From the NCBI GenBank assembly GCA_020058765.1, contig JAGVDM010000004.1:62001-126000 (forward strand): a stretch of DNA of 64,000 nucleotides, given 5' to 3'. This document shows, piece after piece, positions 2,172-44,783 of the stretch (the stretch's first letter is position 1; the number at the start of each line of letters is the position of its first letter). A program made the position numbers and the translations under genes. The notes beneath the pieces were generated by a model, which was not told where the DNA came from, did not search any database, and saw only the letters and a list, made by a program, of their open reading frames with translations. Source of the stretch: Candidatus Peribacterales bacterium. GTDB lineage: Bacteria; Patescibacteriota; Gracilibacteria; Peribacterales; Peribacteraceae.

Positions 2172-2189
2172 TCTCTTTTTTCTCTTCTC
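2172..2189 (+). promoter_or_regulatory. All-pyrimidine leader before rpsG
   Basis: The whole 18-nt gap between the rpsL stop and the rpsG ATG consists of C and T (18/18). There is no room for an SD. Because the gap is inside an operon, the tract is unlikely to be a transcription start signal and is a candidate translation signal, perhaps read by ribosomal protein S1 (inference). Confidence 0.6.
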
Positions 2190-3300: not shown

Positions 3301-3417
3301 GGGCACTTTCTCGCCGTTGTTCGTTGCAAGTTCGCGCCTGCTACAGTAGAGTCCTGCGGAAATTCAGACCGCAAATTTCCGCGCGTCTGCCGCTTTTCTC
3401 TCTCATCCCACCTTATC

Positions 3418-5514
<2,097 letters not shown>

Positions 5515-6096: not shown

Positions 6097-6119
6097 CCCT
6101 CCGCGCGGAGGGTTTTTTT
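6097..6119 (+). terminator. Intrinsic terminator after the TrpR-like gene
   Basis: CCCTCCGC and GCGGAGGG form a contiguous 16-nt palindrome (6097-6112) followed by seven T (6113-6119). The T-run merges into the pyrimidine tract of the next small gene. Confidence 0.85.
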
Positions 6120-6142
6120 ATTCTTTCTTTCTTCTTTTTTTT

Positions 6143-6316
6143 ATGTCTACACCAGAAGACAGTCCTGAGCCGCCACCTGCGGCGCCTATCCCTACTCAGC
6201 CGCTTCCTATAGAGAAGCAGCGCTCAGTCTACGCCCTTTTCTTTGATCGAGTAGAGGGTCGATGGGTTGAAACTCCACTCATGGGTATTTCCTGTAAAGA
6301 TGACGATGGCGAGTGA
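6143..6316 (+). CDS. Small Pro-rich orphan protein
   Basis: A 57-residue protein from ATG 6143 to TGA 6316. It starts MSTPEDSPEPPPAAPIPT, a Pro-rich N-terminus, then SVYALFFDRVEGRWVETPL and an acidic tail with one Cys. The 22 bases before ATG (6121-6142) are all pyrimidine, the strongest leader of this type in the window, which is the main reason to call it a gene. No homologue is recognised. Confidence 0.6.
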   Translation: MSTPEDSPEPPPAAPIPTQPLPIEKQRSVYALFFDRVEGRWVETPLMGISCKDDDGE

Positions 6317-9453: not shown

Positions 9454-9733
9454 TGCGGCCATGGTAGCAGAGGTACGCACCGTCTCGGTAACGGAGTGTT
9501 CTGTGAGTGTGAAATCGCTTACCAACTTTTTCGATCTGTGACGTGATAGCACTTTCTGTGCAGGTGCTTTTTTGCGTATGTGGCAGGAACAGAGCGCGAA
9601 TTTTTCAAAAGAGTCCCCCGTACTTCTCTGGCAAAACCCGATCTTGACCCTCGCGATCAATGCCAATATCTTGTGGTGTTGCGTGGTACTGCACGCTAGA
9701 TGTAGTGTTTTCTTTCCCTTTCCCTCCCGTTCC

Positions 9734-12700
9734 ATGAACCCTTCCACGACCGCCCAAACATCCGTTTCTCCAGCCAAAGAAGGGCAGAATGAAGGGAAAA
9801 ATCTTGGTGCGAAAGGGCTCTCGATTTCCCGCGTGTTCACTACACCCGGGAGTGATCCAATGGAGGAAGTGACCTACGAGAAGCGCACGAGCAAAATTGT
9901 GAACACCGACGGATCGGTGGTGTTTGCTATGGAAGATGCAGAGATTCCTGCCGATTGGTCGCAGGTGGCAACGGACATTGTGGTGAGCAAGTACTTCCGT
10001 AAGGCCGGCGTGCCGCAGCTCGATGCTGCTGGCAACGTGATTCGCGACGAGAAAGGTGAAGTGAAGACCGGGCCGGAAAAATCGGTGAAGCAAGTCGTTC
10101 GCCGCCTCACAGGATGCTGGCGGTGGTGGGGCGAAACACACCAGTACTTCGAAACCGCACAAGATGCACAGGCGTTCGAGGACGAGCTCTCCTACATGCT
10201 CGTGCACCAAATGGCTGCACCAAATAGCCCGCAATGGTTCAATACGGGCTTGGCGTACGCCTATGGCATTACTGGTGTACCGCAGGGGCACTACTACTGC
10301 GATCCCAAGACTGGAGATGTCCGCAAGAGCGAGGATGCCTACACCCATCCGCAGCCACATGCCTGCTTCATTCAGTCTGTGGATGACGACATGGTGAACC
10401 CGGGTGGCATTATGGATCTGTGGGTGCGCGAGGCACGCCTGTTCAAGTTTGGTTCCGGCACGGGGACTAACTTCAGCAACCTCCGTGGCGATGGCGAGCC
10501 GCTCTCCGGCGGAGGCAAAAGCTCCGGGCTCATGAGCTTCCTCAAGATCGGTGACCGCGCTGCTGGCGCCATCAAATCGGGTGGCACCACCCGCCGTGCC
10601 GCCAAGATGGTCTGCTTGGATCTCGACCACCCAGATATTGAACGTTTCATTGATTGGAAAGTGAACGAAGAGAAGAAGGTCGCCGCCATGGGCGAAGCCG
10701 GGTACGACCTCGACTTCAACGGTGAGGCATACCAGACCGTGTCCGGGCAGAATTCCAACAACTCGGTACGCGTGGCGCACTCGTTCTTTGAATCGGTGGA
10801 AAAAGACAGCGATTGGAGCTTGTTCTGGCGCACAGAGCTCAAAAAGGCGAGTGCAGAGGGTCGCCCCGCTGCGCCATGCAAGACCATGAAAGCGCGCACA
10901 CTGTGGGACAAAATCGGCTACGCCGCATGGGCATGTGCCGATCCGGGTGTGCAGTACGATACGACGATCAACGATTGGCACACTTGCCCAGAGGATGGCC
11001 GCATCAATGCGAGCAATCCGTGTAGTGAGTACATGTTCCTTGATAACACTGCCTGCAACCTCGCGTCGATCAACTTGATGAAGTTCTACAACGAAGAACA
11101 CGGCACGTTCGAAATGGAGAAGTTCCAGCACGCTGTGCGCCTCTGGACAGTAGTGCTCGAGGTGTCTGTGCTCATGGCGCAGTTCCCCAGCCGCGAGATC
11201 GCCGAGCTTAGCTACAAGTTCCGCACGCTCGGCCTTGGCTACGCCAACATTGGGGCCATGCTTATGCGCATGGGCATCCCGTACGATTCCGAGGAGGCAC
11301 GCGCCATGTGTGGCGCGATTACTGCCGTACTCACTGGGGAGTCGTATGCCACCTCTGCAGAGATGGCGAAAAATCTGGGTACCTTCCCTGGCTACAAGCC
11401 AAACCGCGAGCACATGCTCCGCGTGATTCGCAATCACCGCCGTGCCGCCTACGATGCGCCACGCAGCGAATACGAAGGATTGCACGTGAAGCCAGTGGGT
11501 ATTGATCAGCGCCGTTGCCCAGAGAGCATGCTGGAATGCGCCAAAGAGTGTTGGGATCGTGCGCTCGCCATGGGCGAGAAGTACGGGTACCGCAACGCGC
11601 AGACCACAGTGATTGCTCCTACGGGCACTATTGGATTGCTCATGGACTGCGACACCACGGGTGTGGAGCCAGACTTCGCACTGGTGAAGTTCAAGAAGCT
11701 CGCAGGCGGCGGCTACATGAAGATCGCCAACCAGTCGGTAAAGCCCGCGCTGGAGCGCATGGGCTACAGCGACCAGGACGTACAGAGCATCATGCAGTAC
11801 GTCATGGGTACATTGCGCCTCGAGGGTGCGCCACACATCAACCGCGCATCACTCAAAGAGAAAGGATTCACCGATCAGGACATCGCAAAAATCGAGAAGC
11901 AACTGCCCACCGTGTTCGAACTCGGCTTCGCCTTCAACCGTTGGGTGCTGGGCGATGAGACGCTGGATCGATTGGGCATTGCCAAGGAAGACTACGAGAA
12001 GCCCGACTTCCAGCTGCTCCCTGCACTCGGTTTCACCGAGAAGCAGATCGAAGAAGCCAACGTGGTGATTTCTGGCCACATGACTGTGGAGGGCGCTCCT
12101 AACCTCAAAGACGAGCACCTTGCCGTGTTCGACTGCGCCAACAAGTGCGGCAAGATCGGCAAGCGATTCATTGATGTGGAGGGGCATATCCGCATGATGG
12201 CTGCGTCGCAGCCGTTCATTTCTGGCGCGATCAGCAAGACGATTAACCTGCCTATGGAAGCCACAGTAGAGGATATCAAGAATGCGTACTTCCTTAGCTG
12301 GAAGCTCGGCCTCAAGGCCAACGCGCTCTATCGCGACGGCTCCAAGCTCAGCCAGGCGCTCAGCAACAAATCCGACAAAAAAGGAAAGAAGTCCGCTGGT
12401 GCTGCAGCCGAAAGCAAAGAAGTTGTCCGAGAAGTGGTGAAAGAAGTCATCAAAGAAGTGCCGCGTCGCCGCAAACTGCCCGACGAGCGCATGAGCATTA
12501 CCCACAAGTTCTCGGTTGCCGGTCACGAAGGGTACATCCATGCCGGTATGTACGAAGATGGCACCCCGGGGGAGATCTTCATCAAGATGAGCAAAGAGGG
12601 TTCCACGCTCTCGGGCGTGATGGATACACTCGCGCTCTCGCTCTCTATGAACCTGCAGTATGGTGTGCCTCTGGAGGTGCTCTGCGAGAAGCTCGTGCAC

Positions 12701-13138
12701 ACACGCTTCGAGCCAGGTGGTATGACACAGAATCGCGAAATCCCCATGGTGAAGAGCATCATGGACTACATGGGTCGTTGGCTTGCGCTCAAGTTCATGT
12801 CGAAAGACCAGGCCAAGCGGTTCCACAACAGCGATCTTGTGGATAAGGCCTACAGCGAAGGCAGCAAGAGCAAGGAAGCCTTCGCTATGCGCCTGCCAGT
12901 TGTGGATGAAGGTGCACAGCCCGTTGTATTCGACTTCGCACCAGCAGTGCAGGAGAAGACCGCAAAAGAGGTTGCACATGATACTGCACAAGCAGGGAAT
13001 GTGCCCTCTAAGCGCGAACAAGCCAAGCTACAAGGATTCACTGGTTCCATTTGTAGCGGCTGCGGCTCTGTACGCATGAAGCGCAACGGCAGCTGCGAGG
13101 TGTGTCTCGATTGCGGAGCCACGAGCGGGTGCAGTTGA
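9734..13138 (+). CDS. nrdJ: Adenosylcobalamin-dependent (class II) ribonucleotide reductase
   Basis: A 1134-residue class II reductase, making deoxyribonucleotides without oxygen using B12. The start at 9734 follows a 25/26 pyrimidine tract (9708-9733). Visible: SPQWFNTGLAY, HACFIQSVDDD with one redox Cys near 210, the radical-site block NPCSE at 428-432 followed by CNLASINL, APTGTIGLLMDCDTTGVEP, and a C-terminal Cys-rich tail (CSGCGSVRMKRNGSCEVCLD) that re-reduces the active site or binds zinc. About residues 895-940 form a Lys/Glu-rich linker. No B12 synthesis gene or NrdR is in the window, so cobalamin is presumably scavenged. Confidence 0.95.
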   Translation: MNPSTTAQTSVSPAKEGQNEGKNLGAKGLSISRVFTTPGSDPMEEVTYEKRTSKIVNTDGSVVFAMEDAEIPADWSQVATDIVVSKYFRKAGVPQLDAAGNVIRDEKGEVKTGPEKSVKQVVRRLTGCWRWWGETHQYFETAQDAQAFEDELSYMLVHQMAAPNSPQWFNTGLAYAYGITGVPQGHYYCDPKTGDVRKSEDAYTHPQPHACFIQSVDDDMVNPGGIMDLWVREARLFKFGSGTGTNFSNLRGDGEPLSGGGKSSGLMSFLKIGDRAAGAIKSGGTTRRAAKMVCLDLDHPDIERFIDWKVNEEKKVAAMGEAGYDLDFNGEAYQTVSGQNSNNSVRVAHSFFESVEKDSDWSLFWRTELKKASAEGRPAAPCKTMKARTLWDKIGYAAWACADPGVQYDTTINDWHTCPEDGRINASNPCSEYMFLDNTACNLASINLMKFYNEEHGTFEMEKFQHAVRLWTVVLEVSVLMAQFPSREIAELSYKFRTLGLGYANIGAMLMRMGIPYDSEEARAMCGAITAVLTGESYATSAEMAKNLGTFPGYKPNREHMLRVIRNHRRAAYDAPRSEYEGLHVKPVGIDQRRCPESMLECAKECWDRALAMGEKYGYRNAQTTVIAPTGTIGLLMDCDTTGVEPDFALVKFKKLAGGGYMKIANQSVKPALERMGYSDQDVQSIMQYVMGTLRLEGAPHINRASLKEKGFTDQDIAKIEKQLPTVFELGFAFNRWVLGDETLDRLGIAKEDYEKPDFQLLPALGFTEKQIEEANVVISGHMTVEGAPNLKDEHLAVFDCANKCGKIGKRFIDVEGHIRMMAASQPFISGAISKTINLPMEATVEDIKNAYFLSWKLGLKANALYRDGSKLSQALSNKSDKKGKKSAGAAAESKEVVREVVKEVIKEVPRRRKLPDERMSITHKFSVAGHEGYIHAGMYEDGTPGEIFIKMSKEGSTLSGVMDTLALSLSMNLQYGVPLEVLCEKLVHTRFEPGGMTQNREIPMVKSIMDYMGRWLALKFMSKDQAKRFHNSDLVDKAYSEGSKSKEAFAMRLPVVDEGAQPVVFDFAPAVQEKTAKEVAHDTAQAGNVPSKREQAKLQGFTGSICSGCGSVRMKRNGSCEVCLDCGATSGCS

Positions 13139-21174: not shown

Positions 21175-21948
21175 TTACGCTACAGACATACGCACGTAGC
21201 CCGTCACCTTGGCGCTCCCAAGGTAGGCCTGCACGGTCTTGCTCGGATCCTTCACGAAGGCTTGAGTGAGCAGCGCGTTCTCTTCGCGGAACTTCTTCTC
21301 TTTACCGATCATGATCTTCTCCTGAATTTCTGGTGGCTTGCCCTCCTTTTTGAGCTGCTCCGTCCAGATCTCCTTCTCCTTGGCGACGGCCTCTGCCGTT
21401 ACTTCTTCTGGTGAAACATAGCTTGGGCCCATGGCCGTTGCGTGCATGGCTGCATCTTTTGCAGCCTCAACCGAACCGCCTTCCAGTGCTACCACCACAG
21501 CAAGCTTGCCGTTGGTGTGCACGTAGTGGCCGAGCGTGGAACCCTCCACCACCTTGAGCTCACCCAAAGTAATGTTCTCGCCAAGCTGCTGCACTGCTGC
21601 AGCAATCTTCTCTTTGATTTCATCTTCTGCTGCTTCGCCCTTGGCGAGCGCAAGCTCGGCAAGCTCTTTGCCAATCACCTGGAACGCATCGCTGCGGCTC
21701 ACGAAGTCCGTTTCGCAACGGAGCATCACCAGTGCTGCTTTTCCGCTACCCTCCGCGAGGAAGATGTACCCTTCACCCTGTGCGCGATCAGCCTTTTTTA
21801 CAACCTGAGCCTCTCCGCGCTTGCGCAGAATCTCGATGGCCTTCTCTTCGTCACCACCTGCTTCCTCCAGTGCCTTTTTGCACTCCAGGATGCTCACACC
21901 CGTGCGGGCGCGAAGTGATGCGACTGCTGCTGCGGAGATATCTGCCAT
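21175..21948 (-). CDS. tsf: Translation elongation factor Ts
   Basis: A 257-residue EF-Ts, the nucleotide-exchange factor for EF-Tu. N-terminal UBA-like domain with LRARTGVSILECKKALEEAG, and the core Tu-contact block AALVMLRCETDFVSRSDAF. The C-terminal part (GKEKKFREENALLTQAFVKD) is complete. The 24 bases 21953-21976 upstream are all pyrimidine on the coding strand, with no SD. In the usual rpsB-tsf order, 46 nt after rpsB. Confidence 0.96.
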   Translation of the reverse strand: MADISAAAVASLRARTGVSILECKKALEEAGGDEEKAIEILRKRGEAQVVKKADRAQGEGYIFLAEGSGKAALVMLRCETDFVSRSDAFQVIGKELAELALAKGEAAEDEIKEKIAAAVQQLGENITLGELKVVEGSTLGHYVHTNGKLAVVVALEGGSVEAAKDAAMHATAMGPSYVSPEEVTAEAVAKEKEIWTEQLKKEGKPPEIQEKIMIGKEKKFREENALLTQAFVKDPSKTVQAYLGSAKVTGYVRMSVA

Positions 21949-21994
21949 GATCGAGAGAGGGGAGAGAGAAAAGGGATTCTAGGGATGATCTGTA

Positions 21995-27661: not shown

Positions 27662-27895
27662 AGACTCGTGGGAGTAAGGGGATGAAAAGCCGGAAGGATG
27701 CAAAATGATCCTCCCTTCATGTGAGAAGACTCTCATATCGCCCAAGTCTTACGGGCATTTATCACAATTTGTATGCAGCGAGGGGAATGTCTGTTCCAGA
27801 TGTATGCACACACAAACCCTTAATTGGTTCTTAAGCTCGGGGGAATACAGTGCTTGCGGTCGACCCGTATTCTCTACTTCTTTCTTTCATTCATT

Positions 27896-28552
27896 ATGAA
27901 GAAATCATTCACTCTCGGTGCCGCGTCGGGCATGTCGGTGCTTTCACTCGCCGTCGTACTCCTCGCGCAAACCGTTGGCGCACAATCATCGGGTGGTACC
28001 GCGGAGGCCACTCGCATGGCAGATCACCCCACTCCATCCCAGGAGTGCGTTACTGCCATGGCCGATATGCACGAATCACATCTGGCGAATATGGATACCA
28101 TGCACGAAGCGCACAAGACCATGATGACCGCGTACAGCGAGGGTCTTCGTGATGCTGCGGAAATTGCCGATGACGAAGCGCGTGCAGAGGCGATCAAAAA
28201 GATTCGCGAAGATATGCGCACTGCCATGGAGGCAGCACGCCCAAACGAGGAAAACACCGCACTCCGTGATGCGCTCAAAGACGCCTGCGGAGACACCATG
28301 ATGCTCATGGGTCACGGCGGTCCTGGCATGATGGGCGGTGGTCATATGAAAATGAAGATGCACAACGGCAAGGGCATGCTGGCAGAAAAGCTCGGCATGA
28401 CCGAAGACGAACTCAAGTCCGCACTTCAAGAGGGCAAGACGATTGAAGACCTTGCACAAGAAGCTGGTGTGGAATTGCCGCCTCGCCCAGAGATGGGCAA
28501 GCGCATGGGCGGTATGCGCATGAAGTGGCACGGCGAAGACGCCGCTGAGTAA
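27896..28552 (+). CDS. Secreted Met/His-rich protein, possible metal binder
   Basis: A 218-residue protein with signal peptide and AQ-type cleavage (TVGAQSSGG). A helical middle region (CVTAMADMHESHLANMDTMH) is followed by a Met/Gly/His cluster at ~138-164 (MMLMGHGGPGMMGGGHMKMK) and a helix-turn segment LAEKLGMTEDELKSALQEGK similar to DUF2680-type proteins. Met/His clusters of this kind bind copper or silver in other exported proteins. Leader 27871-27895 is 22/25 pyrimidine. Divergent from the SLH/CHRD gene; the 234-bp gap between them holds both promoters but no clear consensus. Confidence 0.75.
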   Translation: MKKSFTLGAASGMSVLSLAVVLLAQTVGAQSSGGTAEATRMADHPTPSQECVTAMADMHESHLANMDTMHEAHKTMMTAYSEGLRDAAEIADDEARAEAIKKIREDMRTAMEAARPNEENTALRDALKDACGDTMMLMGHGGPGMMGGGHMKMKMHNGKGMLAEKLGMTEDELKSALQEGKTIEDLAQEAGVELPPRPEMGKRMGGMRMKWHGEDAAE

Positions 28553-36509: not shown

Positions 36510-36725
36510 TTACATGTTGGAGTAGAACTGCTTCTGGCGGTTCTCTTGGCGGAACCCCTCGCGCTTGAGCGCACGAATGCGAACGAGGCGCTTGCTTGGA
36601 GTGCGCTTGTACCGTGAGCGCTCGCGGAGCGTCTTCATTACGCCAGTCTTCTGTACCTGCTTCTTCCAGCGCTGGAAGAGGCTGTCGTTACTTTCCTGGC
36701 CTTTGCGGAATGCGTAAATCGCCAT
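36510..36725 (-). CDS. rpsU: 30S ribosomal protein S21
   Basis: A 71-residue bS21 starting MAIYAFRKGQESNDSLFQRW, then KKQVQKTGVMKTLRERSRYK and the basic RTPSKRLVRIRALKREGFRQ end. bS21 sits near the anti-SD end of 16S rRNA and helps SD-based initiation, so its presence bears on how the pyrimidine leaders work. Slightly longer than average at the C-terminus. Its start is divergent from the IMPase gene. Confidence 0.93.
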   Translation of the reverse strand: MAIYAFRKGQESNDSLFQRWKKQVQKTGVMKTLRERSRYKRTPSKRLVRIRALKREGFRQENRQKQFYSNM

Positions 36726-41815: not shown

Positions 41816-43000
41816 TCACACGTAAGCGACTGCGCCGTGTTCGTGCGTATCCAAGCCTTCATCCTCAATTTGTCCGCTTACACGGAGGCCCATCGTCGAT
41901 TGGAGGATCCAGAACAGAATGCCAGATGTTATTGCTGTCCATGCAACGATACTGGCAATACCAATTATCTGTGTTCCAACACTGCTCGCAGAAGAGAATA
42001 GACTCACTGCAACTACGCCCCAAATACCCGCGAAGCAGTGCACTGGCACAGCACCGACCGGGTCATCGATCTTGAGCTTCCAGAGGAGTGTGGAACCTGC
42101 ATACATCACCACACCTCCAATGCCACCAATCATCATTGCACTCATAGGGTTCACCGCCGCGCAGCCGGCAGTAATAGCGACAAGACCGGCGAGTGCTCCA
42201 TTGAGCAGCATGCCGACGTTCGGTTTTCCAATCTTGATCCATGAAAGCGCGAGTGCAGTAAGTGCCCCGGCTGCCGCAGCGAGATTTGTATTCACAGCAA
42301 TGAGCGCGATTGCATCGGCATTCGCATTTCCCGAAGCGGCAATCTGGGAACCGGGATTAAAGCCGAACCAGCCAAACCATAAGATAAATACACCCAATCC
42401 AGCGATGGTGACGTTGTGCCCTTTGTGCACAGTCGAATCTCGATTGAATGCTCCTCGCCGTGGGCCAAGTATCATGGCACCAACCAGACCGGCAGTGCCA
42501 CCGACAGCGTGTACCACTCCTGAACCAGCAAAATCCACGAAGCCCATTGCGGAGAGCCATCCACCGCCCCATGCCCAGTGTCCTACCACAGGGTAGATCA
42601 ACCCAGTGATGGCAAGCGAAATAAGCAGATATGACGAGAACTTCGTACGTTCTGCCATCGCTCCAGAGAGAATCGTTGCAGCCGTTGCTGCGAAGACAGT
42701 TTGAAATAGGAAGAATGCCAAGGGCGGAAGAGATGGATGCGAAATATTCGCAAGAAAGAAACCCTCCATACCGATCCATCCATTGCCTGCGCCAAACATG
42801 AATGCATAGCCCACAGCAAAGAATGCGAGTGATCCCACAGTGAAGTCACTAAAGTTTTTCATGAGGATATTCACAGCATTTTTACTCTGTGTAAAACCTG
42901 CTTCTACTAAAGCGAAGCCCGGTTGCATAAAGAATACGAGGAATGCTGCAAGCAGTACCCAGACGGTATCCAGTGATCGTGCTAGTTCGGAAATATCCAT
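41816..43000 (-). CDS. amt: Ammonium transporter
   Basis: A 394-residue Amt/Rh-family channel with about eleven helices. ATG 43000 follows a 16/16 pyrimidine tract (43018-43003 on the minus strand). Visible: FFMQPGFALVEAGFTQSKNA, GHWAWGGGWLSAMGFVDFAG, the signature FAGSGVVHAVGGTAGLVGAM with a pore His, WFGWFGFNPGS, and VGAVPVHCFAGIWGVVAVSL with the second pore His. The C-terminus (TMGLRVSGQIEDEGLDTHEH) keeps the regulatory tail. Directly follows glnA, a nitrogen-assimilation pair; no glnK/PII gene is beside it. Confidence 0.94.
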   Translation of the reverse strand: MDISELARSLDTVWVLLAAFLVFFMQPGFALVEAGFTQSKNAVNILMKNFSDFTVGSLAFFAVGYAFMFGAGNGWIGMEGFFLANISHPSLPPLAFFLFQTVFAATAATILSGAMAERTKFSSYLLISLAITGLIYPVVGHWAWGGGWLSAMGFVDFAGSGVVHAVGGTAGLVGAMILGPRRGAFNRDSTVHKGHNVTIAGLGVFILWFGWFGFNPGSQIAASGNANADAIALIAVNTNLAAAAGALTALALSWIKIGKPNVGMLLNGALAGLVAITAGCAAVNPMSAMMIGGIGGVVMYAGSTLLWKLKIDDPVGAVPVHCFAGIWGVVAVSLFSSASSVGTQIIGIASIVAWTAITSGILFWILQSTMGLRVSGQIEDEGLDTHEHGAVAYV

Positions 43001-43025
43001 ATGAAAGAGGGGAAGGGGTGATGGG

Positions 43026-44453
43026 CTAAATATCGAAGTATCGGGCGTACTCTGCGGGGCTCGGCATTGATCGCTCTTCATCAACTTCTTTTCGCTTCAG
43101 TATGATGTAATCGTCGAGGAAGTCTTTGCTGAATACACCGCCTTCCAGCAAGAACTTCTGGTCTTTTTCGAGCGCATCCAATGCATCCCCGAGTGCGCCT
43201 GGTGCATGTGGTATCTTGGCAAGTTTTGCTGGTGCCATGTCATAGAGGCTTTCGTCTGTGGCGACACCCGGGTCAATCTTATGACGAATGCCGTCGAGCC
43301 CTGCCATGAGCATGGCGGCGAAGGCGATGTACGGGTTGCAGCCAGGATCAGGTGCGCGGTATTCCACACGCTTTGCCTTGGGGTTCTGTGAATACATAGG
43401 AATACGAATTGCCGCTGAACGATTTCGTTCGGAATAGATGAAATTGACCGGCGCTTCGAACCCAGGAACCAAACGTTTATAGCTATTGGTTGTGGGGTTG
43501 CAAAGCGCACACAGTGCAGGCGCATGCTTTATGAGTCCACCAATGTAATGGAGTGCCATATCGCTCAATCCTGCATATTTCTTTCCGGCAAACAGCGGTT
43601 TACCGCCTCTCCACAAACTCATGTGTGTGTGCATACCCGATCCGTTATCGCCAAAAATCGGCTTGGGCATAAATGTGGCTACTTTGCCGTGGCGATAGGC
43701 CACGTTGCGTACCACATATTTATAGCGCACCAGTTTGTCTGCCATTGTAAGCATGGAATCAAATCGCATGTCGATCTCTGCTTGTCCTGCGGTTGCCACT
43801 TCGTGATGGAATGTTTCCACTTCCACACCAACTGATTCGAGAGCCATTACCATTTCTGCGCGGATGTTCTGTTGTTTGTCTGCAGGTGCAGATGGGAAAT
43901 AGCCGTGCTTGTGGCGAATCTTGTAACCCAAGTTCGGGCCAGATTCTGGACATGCACATTCTCCTGAGTTCCAGATTGCTTCATCGCTATCCACTTCAAA
44001 GTGCGCACCGCCTGCAGATACATCAAAGCTCACGTGATCGAAAATAAAGAATTCTGCCTCTGGCCCAAAGTACGCAGTGTCCGCGATCTTGCTCGCCTTC
44101 AAATATTCTTCCGCTCTTCTTGCAATTGTTCTGGGGCTGCGACCGTACAAATGCTTGTGTGATGGATCACGAATGTCACACACCAATGAAAGTGTTGGCT
44201 CATCGGTAAACGGATCGATCACGGCAGTAGTGGGATCGGGGATCAGAAGCATGTCTGATTCCTGGATCGCCTGGAATCCGCGAATGCTACTTCCATCAAA
44301 TCCAGCACCTTCCTTGAGTACGTCTTCCAATTGATGAATGGGCTTGCTTGTGTGGTTGAGCGTTCCTGGGACATCGACAAGGGTGAGATCCAAAATAGTG
44401 CACTTATGTTTCTTTGCTAGATCAATCACATCTTTTGCTGTGCGGGTTGGCAT
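43026..44453 (-). CDS. glnA: Glutamine synthetase, type I
   Basis: A 475-residue GSI making glutamine from glutamate, ammonia and ATP. Landmarks: [73 protein letters not shown] and [36 protein letters not shown] matches the GSI-beta adenylylation region with its Tyr, so covalent control by GlnE is possible. The leader is 30/32 pyrimidine (44485-44454, minus). Only 25 nt separate it from amt, so the two genes form an operon. Confidence 0.95.
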
Positions 44454-44783
44454 GGAATGAGAGGAAGGTGGAAGAGAAAAGGAAGATTGAAAACAGGTTC
44501 GAAAAATTCTTCCTGCATCTGCTTCAATACGGCAATTGCTTGTCTTGTTCAAAAAACGAACTGTTGCGAAAAATTGCACACAGAAGTATTCGTTATTCGA
44601 ACCGCAATTTTGCGGCGATAAATCACTTCTCTATGCCATTTCTTTTGTTAAAAGAAATCCACTATTTTTTAAAAACTTCCTTACTCTTTCCGGCAGGAAG
44701 TTCATGTTCATTACAAATTCCGTGATAGCGGAATGCTTGTACAATAACAGAATGACAACAATGACGATCCTGTATGTATTGAG
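44454..44783. other. Intergenic region between glnA and tRNA-His
   Basis: About 330 bp without a gene. It holds the glnA pyrimidine leader (44454-44485) and three small hairpins: CCGCAATTTTGCGG (44602-44615), TTTCTTTT-GTT-AAAAGAAA (44639-44657) and ATTCCG-TGATAG-CGGAAT near 44725-44742. One could end tRNA-His transcription. No glutamine riboswitch consensus was recognised. Confidence 0.6.

Follow-up and report, generated by a model that had tools for sequence, protein, structure and literature searches.

The window analyzed here is a stretch of 64,000 nucleotides (contig C6, positions 62,001–126,000) from the 1.17 Mb genome (G000) of an uncultured bacterium of the candidate phyla radiation (Candidatus Peribacterales); the genome is 99.3% complete and assembled in 10 contigs. 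Eight tracts of C and T lie upstream of start codons in this window. The first of these, 18 pyrimidines in 18 positions (2172–2189, plus strand), constitutes the whole intercistronic gap between rpsL (uS12; 1746–2171, plus; Pfam PF00164), the upstream gene of the rpsG operon with a stop codon ending at 2171, and rpsG (uS7; 2190–2648, plus; PF00177, E = 6e-53), whose ATG begins at 2190. Four further tracts, scored by base count, are on the plus strand: 22/25 (3393–3417) preceding fusA (EF-G; 3418–5514), 22/22 (6121–6142) preceding a 57-codon open reading frame (6143–6316), 25/26 (9708–9733) preceding nrdJ (class II ribonucleotide reductase; 9734–13138), and 22/25 (27871–27895) preceding a Met/His-rich gene without a Pfam match (27896–28552). 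Those on the minus strand are 24/24 (21953–21976) upstream of tsf (EF-Ts; 21175–21948), 16/16 (43003–43018) upstream of amt (ammonium transporter; 41816–43000), and 30/32 (44454–44485) preceding glnA (glutamine synthetase; 43026–44453); fusA, nrdJ, tsf, amt and glnA were all identified by Pfam. The pyrimidine counts for these tracts had been reported in an earlier note on this DNA and are exact in all eight cases, and an equal window occurs in non-coding DNA at a frequency of 2e-5 to 2e-3 for each tract. The tracts had also been described as standing directly before the start codon, which is so for most, with the exception of tsf, where GATC (4 nt) intervenes before the ATG, and amt, where the tract ends 2 nt (AT) short of it.

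The tract at 6121–6142 is weak evidence, as it adjoins an intrinsic terminator (hairpin plus U-run; 6097–6119, plus) and part of it coincides with the terminator's U-run. The 57-codon open reading frame that follows is a doubtful gene, wedged between two terminator-like inverted repeats, and it may not be a gene at all.

Genes and starts throughout the genome were called using a three-periodic Markov coding model that is blind to the sequence upstream, yielding 477 confident ATG starts; Escherichia coli K-12 was taken through the same pipeline as a positive control, and 15 of 18 confident annotated starts were recovered exactly. Pyrimidines account for 63.9% of positions −18 to −1 across the 477 starts, as compared with 48–50% farther upstream, and for 82% at position −1. 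At least 15 pyrimidines in these 18 positions are found at 18.7% of starts and at only 0.41% of internal ATGs, with similarly low values in coding windows (0.29%) and in convergent intergenic windows (1.1%); pure C/T runs of at least 12 nt precede 5.5% of starts and 0.17% of internal ATGs. The excess is maximal in windows that end at the ATG and returns to background within 12 nt downstream, and the runs most often end exactly at the ATG. Shine-Dalgarno (SD) 4-mers are depleted, being present at 3.6% of starts but 13.9% of internal ATGs, whereas in the E. coli control they precede 55% of starts and the upstream pyrimidine content is 37.6%. The statement in the earlier note that the genes behind the tracts show no purine SD thus extends to the genome as a whole, where there is a pyrimidine excess and no normal purine peak, and C/T-tract starts without an SD are confirmed as a real, genome-wide feature.

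The tracts are graded in strength, with a strong tract at 19–33% of starts depending on the threshold and a weaker pyrimidine bias elsewhere. Ribosomal protein genes and their neighbours are somewhat richer in pyrimidines (73% compared with the 64% average; p = 0.02), although this set has only 16 members and includes a few starts picked by homology that may be wrong.

A second class of start, overlooked in the earlier note, is marked by a −10 box. TANNNT hexamers starting at −12, −14 and −15 are found in 47, 37 and 37 genes respectively where 6.4 are expected per position, a six- to sevenfold enrichment, and after background subtraction a −10 box stands at −12 to −18 before approximately 30% of starts. 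A box at such a distance is expected where transcription begins at or beside the AUG, and from its position we predict that these genes, some 30% of the total, are leaderless or near-leaderless. The boxed and pyrimidine-rich classes avoid each other, with both features at 3.1% of starts as against 10.6% expected, part of this avoidance being built in because the box contains an A. Since 37% of confident starts have neither a box nor a strong pyrimidine bias, the C/T tract is not universal. The initiation mode proposed in the earlier note therefore stands insofar as the tracts mark real starts, but it is only one of two modes, and a graded one.

The sharp placement of boxes at −12 to −18, together with the pyrimidine at −1, which matches the usual Y(−1)R(+1) preference of transcription starts, could be taken to mean that the tract is itself a transcription signal – an initially transcribed region or a promoter discriminator – and that most genes are leaderless. 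The earlier note had argued from the rpsL–rpsG gap that an operon-internal tract cannot be just a transcription signal, and the same is seen more widely: box-less co-directional gaps of 14–45 nt (n = 35) are 76% pyrimidine, and 60% of these gaps are at least 80% pyrimidine, whereas the 18 nt following the stop codons of convergent genes are 54% pyrimidine. As tracts fill these box-less gaps within operons, they cannot be a promoter feature only. With the two classes of start excluding each other and position −1 still a pyrimidine in 77% of tightly spaced box-less cistrons, we regard a purely transcriptional role as quite improbable.

Local folding energy is weakest at starts, and the tract might merely keep the start region unstructured and be read by no factor, with unstructured RNA, an AUG and IF3 being sufficient. 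Bacteroidia similarly pair SD-less starts with low structure (PMC9976891), and strong k-mer specificity is absent here. An element of this kind would, however, be expected to favour A and T, whereas it is C that is enriched at starts (approximately 0.35, compared with 0.26 upstream) and A is not, and it would not account for the excess of long pure C/T runs; we consider this explanation unlikely, though deserving of some weight. Avoidance of structure beyond that given by base composition is not seen, as native starts give −4.51 and shuffled sequences −4.34 and composition explains all of the effect.

A k-mer test at starts identified no fixed motif or spacing in the tracts, only a mild enrichment of TTTC, TTCC and TCTC, which argues against base pairing of the tract. 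Purine-rich stretches do exist in 16S rRNA and C/U tracts would in general be complementary to them, such that a swapped SD/anti-SD arrangement away from the 3′ tail can be imagined; but with no k-mer standing out further, a loose spacing, and a 16S 3′ tail that is itself pyrimidine-rich, we give this idea almost no credence. According to PMC5397173 and references there, ribosomal protein bS1 prefers U- or pyrimidine-rich RNA, and from this preference, together with the absence of any set motif or distance, we infer that bS1 probably reads the C/U tract.

The earlier note had named the number of S1 domains, bS21, and a CCTCC at the 16S rRNA 3′ end as points on which its proposal could be examined. 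A bS1 of 448 amino acids is present, with residues 3–350 aligning to residues 7–348 of E. coli bS1, a segment we take to span domains D1–D4, among them the D1–D2 pair that serves for docking; the Peribacteria protein is thus predicted to have four domains (D1–D4), with D5–D6 absent. Most genomes of the family have a full or near-full bS1, with only weak matches in two (G023 and G025), and none of the features tested is unique to bS1 of this lineage. Both uS2 and IF3 are present. The C-terminal 40 or so residues of bS1 (406–447) resemble a stretch of another open reading frame (G000, contig C4, 91116–91235), a likeness that recurs in other genomes of the family at approximately 46–61% identity and represents a shared small module.

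A candidate bS21 gene (rpsU; 36510–36725, minus) does lie in the window, identified by a weak Pfam match. It has a −10-like TAGGCT approximately 17 nt before the ATG, which would make it near-leaderless. Six other sampled members of the family gave no bS21 match at the same threshold, which may reflect weak sensitivity of the HMM, divergence or real loss.

Few bacterial sequences are as conserved as the CCUCC anti-SD, and its state in this genome goes beyond what had been anticipated. The 16S 3′ tail (locus L001) reads GTAGGAGAACCTGCGGATGGAACATTTCCTTA, also quoted as GGAACATTTCCTTA and CAUUUCCUUA, with UUUCC where CCUCC is normal, such that CACCTCCTTA has become CATTTCCTTA. Among 26 readable tails of Ca. 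Peribacteraceae, CCTCC is gone in 23 and kept in three; those without it read ATTTCC, ACTTCC, ATCTCC, GTTTCC or GTTTCT, and seven versions of the anti-SD stretch are found in related genera. Two relatives with single-contig genomes (G027 and G029) each have one 16S match, which makes an intact copy elsewhere in these two genomes unlikely. Compensating SD pairing with UUUCC was tested and rejected, as complements of the genome's own tail occur at 2.3% of starts and 7.1% of internal ATGs. In the rest of the class, most families retain CACCTCC. Further losses or changes are found in five families (f6, f10, f27, f44 and f54), showing that anti-SD decay is recurrent in the phylum.

Several additional observations concern these tails. 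Separate losses or changes at loci L350, L365, L364, L112–L114, L120, L121 and L123 in other candidate-phyla families have the forms ACTTAA, AATTCC, ACTTCC, CCGCC, CACCACC and CACCTTTG. A contig scan for TTCC-type anti-SDs (16 specified bases) was too loose, and most of its matches look like chance, although three Peribacteria/Peregrinibacteria matches are real 16S tails. The 16S gene of the window's genome is broken at a contig end, with its 3′ part starting contig C7, and contigs C2 and C3 (L013 and L014) both end within the first 100 nt or so of a 16S gene, which suggests either two rRNA operons or an assembly broken by repeats.

The anti-SD region can pair with the precursor sequence that follows it (L001, 654–680; family loci L068–L092), with both sides switching together, as in TTCC-TTACCA-GGGAA and CTCC-TTACCA-GGGAG. 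The second core base of the anti-SD co-varies with a downstream precursor base in 25 of the 26 tails (C-G in 11, T-A in 14, and C-A in the remaining one). Placed on a 16S tree, this covariation needs approximately four to six changes, a count that depends on a poorly resolved tree with one row (L091) on a very long branch; two of the changes are forced by well supported branches. Because the partner is outside the canonical 16S 3′ end, we read the pairing as a pre-16S hairpin. The mature 16S may end at UUUCCUUA, or may retain the hairpin partner, CCAGGGAA. Elsewhere in the phylum, many families have comparable CTCC...GGAG pairs.

Other members of the class were sampled at 160–200 kb each, giving 62–88 confident starts apiece. 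In G027 and G029, which belong to the family, SD 4-mers occur at 1.5% of starts and pyrimidine content is 68–69%. In two class members from other families, G041 (f3) and G055 (f5), CCUCC is intact, yet SD 4-mers are found at only 6–8% of starts compared with 17–18% internally, and pyrimidines are in excess (at 68% and 62%, respectively); G063 (f18) is also without SD and has a small excess (51%). As families with an intact CCUCC are already SD-less, SD use would have been lost first and the rRNA have decayed later, and the loss of SD use thus appears older than that of the anti-SD. Upstream of rpsG, 30 genomes of the family average 74% pyrimidine with no visible SD, whereas outside the class, where the comparison covers rpsG and fusA starts only, rpsG has 48% pyrimidine and an SD in five of 19 cases. 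Within the phylum, it is here that the C/U tract is strongest.

We think it likely that this lineage has given up SD pairing, with leadered mRNAs depending on a C/U tract, carried by about a third of genes, that is probably bound by bS1, and about another third of genes predicted to be leaderless or near-leaderless. Leadered mRNAs and operon-internal cistrons would offer an unstructured C/U tract in approximately the last 20 nt before the AUG, at which the 30S subunit would be recruited, probably through the RNA-binding domains of the four-domain bS1; the pyrimidine at −1 and the low local structure may aid selection of the AUG. In the leaderless or near-leaderless third, a −10 box 12–18 nt before the AUG would place the 5′ end at or beside it. 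The tracts, the absence of SD, the −10 boxes, the decay and covariation of the anti-SD and the presence of bS1 are direct observations, whereas the tract as a ribosome-binding site, bS1 as its reader and the leaderless state of the boxed genes are put forward by inference. Once SD was no longer used, the anti-SD would have drifted within the family from CCUCC to UUUCC, CUUCC, UCUCC and further variants, the main constraint being its pairing with the adjoining downstream stretch of the precursor. More tentatively, and with slightly less than even confidence, we propose that the whole family has exchanged rRNA–mRNA pairing for bS1 recognition of C/U tracts as the general ribosome-binding site of leadered genes, leaving the anti-SD free to drift and preserved mainly by the pairing that it forms with the pre-16S trailer in the course of maturation.

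Genomes without SD, loss of the anti-SD, and leaderless genes have all been described before, each on its own. Bacteroidia resemble this genome in having no SD genome-wide, weakly structured starts and a bS21 (here a candidate), but their anti-SD is intact and sequestered by bS21, bS18 and bS6, whereas here it is broken, and they favour A at −3, −6, −12 and −13 where C/T is favoured here (PMC9976891, PMC3155529); A has frequencies of 0.17, 0.20, 0.21 and 0.23 at these positions, with no enrichment of the Bacteroidia type. Organisms without an anti-SD have been reported for 128 taxa (Amin et al. 2018, PMC6107228; Lim et al. 2012 cited there), which according to the main text of PMC6107228 are concentrated in Bacteroidetes, Mycoplasma and Carsonella, and that main text makes no mention of ‘candidate’, ‘Peregrinibacteria’ or ‘pyrimidine’. 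As the main text describes them, these taxa have a mutated anti-SD without a matching SD variant, and the degenerate anti-SD without a compensating SD found here is of the same kind. Recognition of U- or pyrimidine-rich leaders by bS1 is described for E. coli (Boni 1991) and cyanobacterial rbcS (Mutsuda and Sugiura 2006), as cited in PMC10783764 and PMC6847405; as presented there, those systems share the pyrimidine-rich upstream element and bS1 but concern individual mRNAs or an accessory to SD, whereas in the present genome initiation of this type would operate genome-wide with no SD. Bacteria rich in leaderless mRNAs, such as Mycobacterium and Deinococcus (PMC5397173, PMC3160421), likewise have a −10 box immediately before the AUG, but their leaderless genes usually stand beside SD-led genes, whereas here the leadered genes too are without SD.

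We found no description of SD or anti-SD use in Patescibacteria in the literature within reach, which lay mostly outside subscription journals. What appears to be new is that these features come together in a lineage of the candidate phyla, along with a pyrimidine tract across the genome, and that the anti-SD varies through the family in a series of forms that change in step with the trailer. The lineage offers a natural system for asking what initiation specificity remains without SD pairing. Start calls in such genomes may be wrong where the gene finder is tuned to SD, and the results suggest that start annotation could gain from the use of C/T tracts and −10 boxes.

One further member of the class, G077 (f10), has no SD and 59% pyrimidine at its starts when TGA is read as sense. 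Its coding fraction (L318–L327) rises from 0.19 to 0.80 on this reading, which is consistent with a TGA-recoded lineage within the same class.
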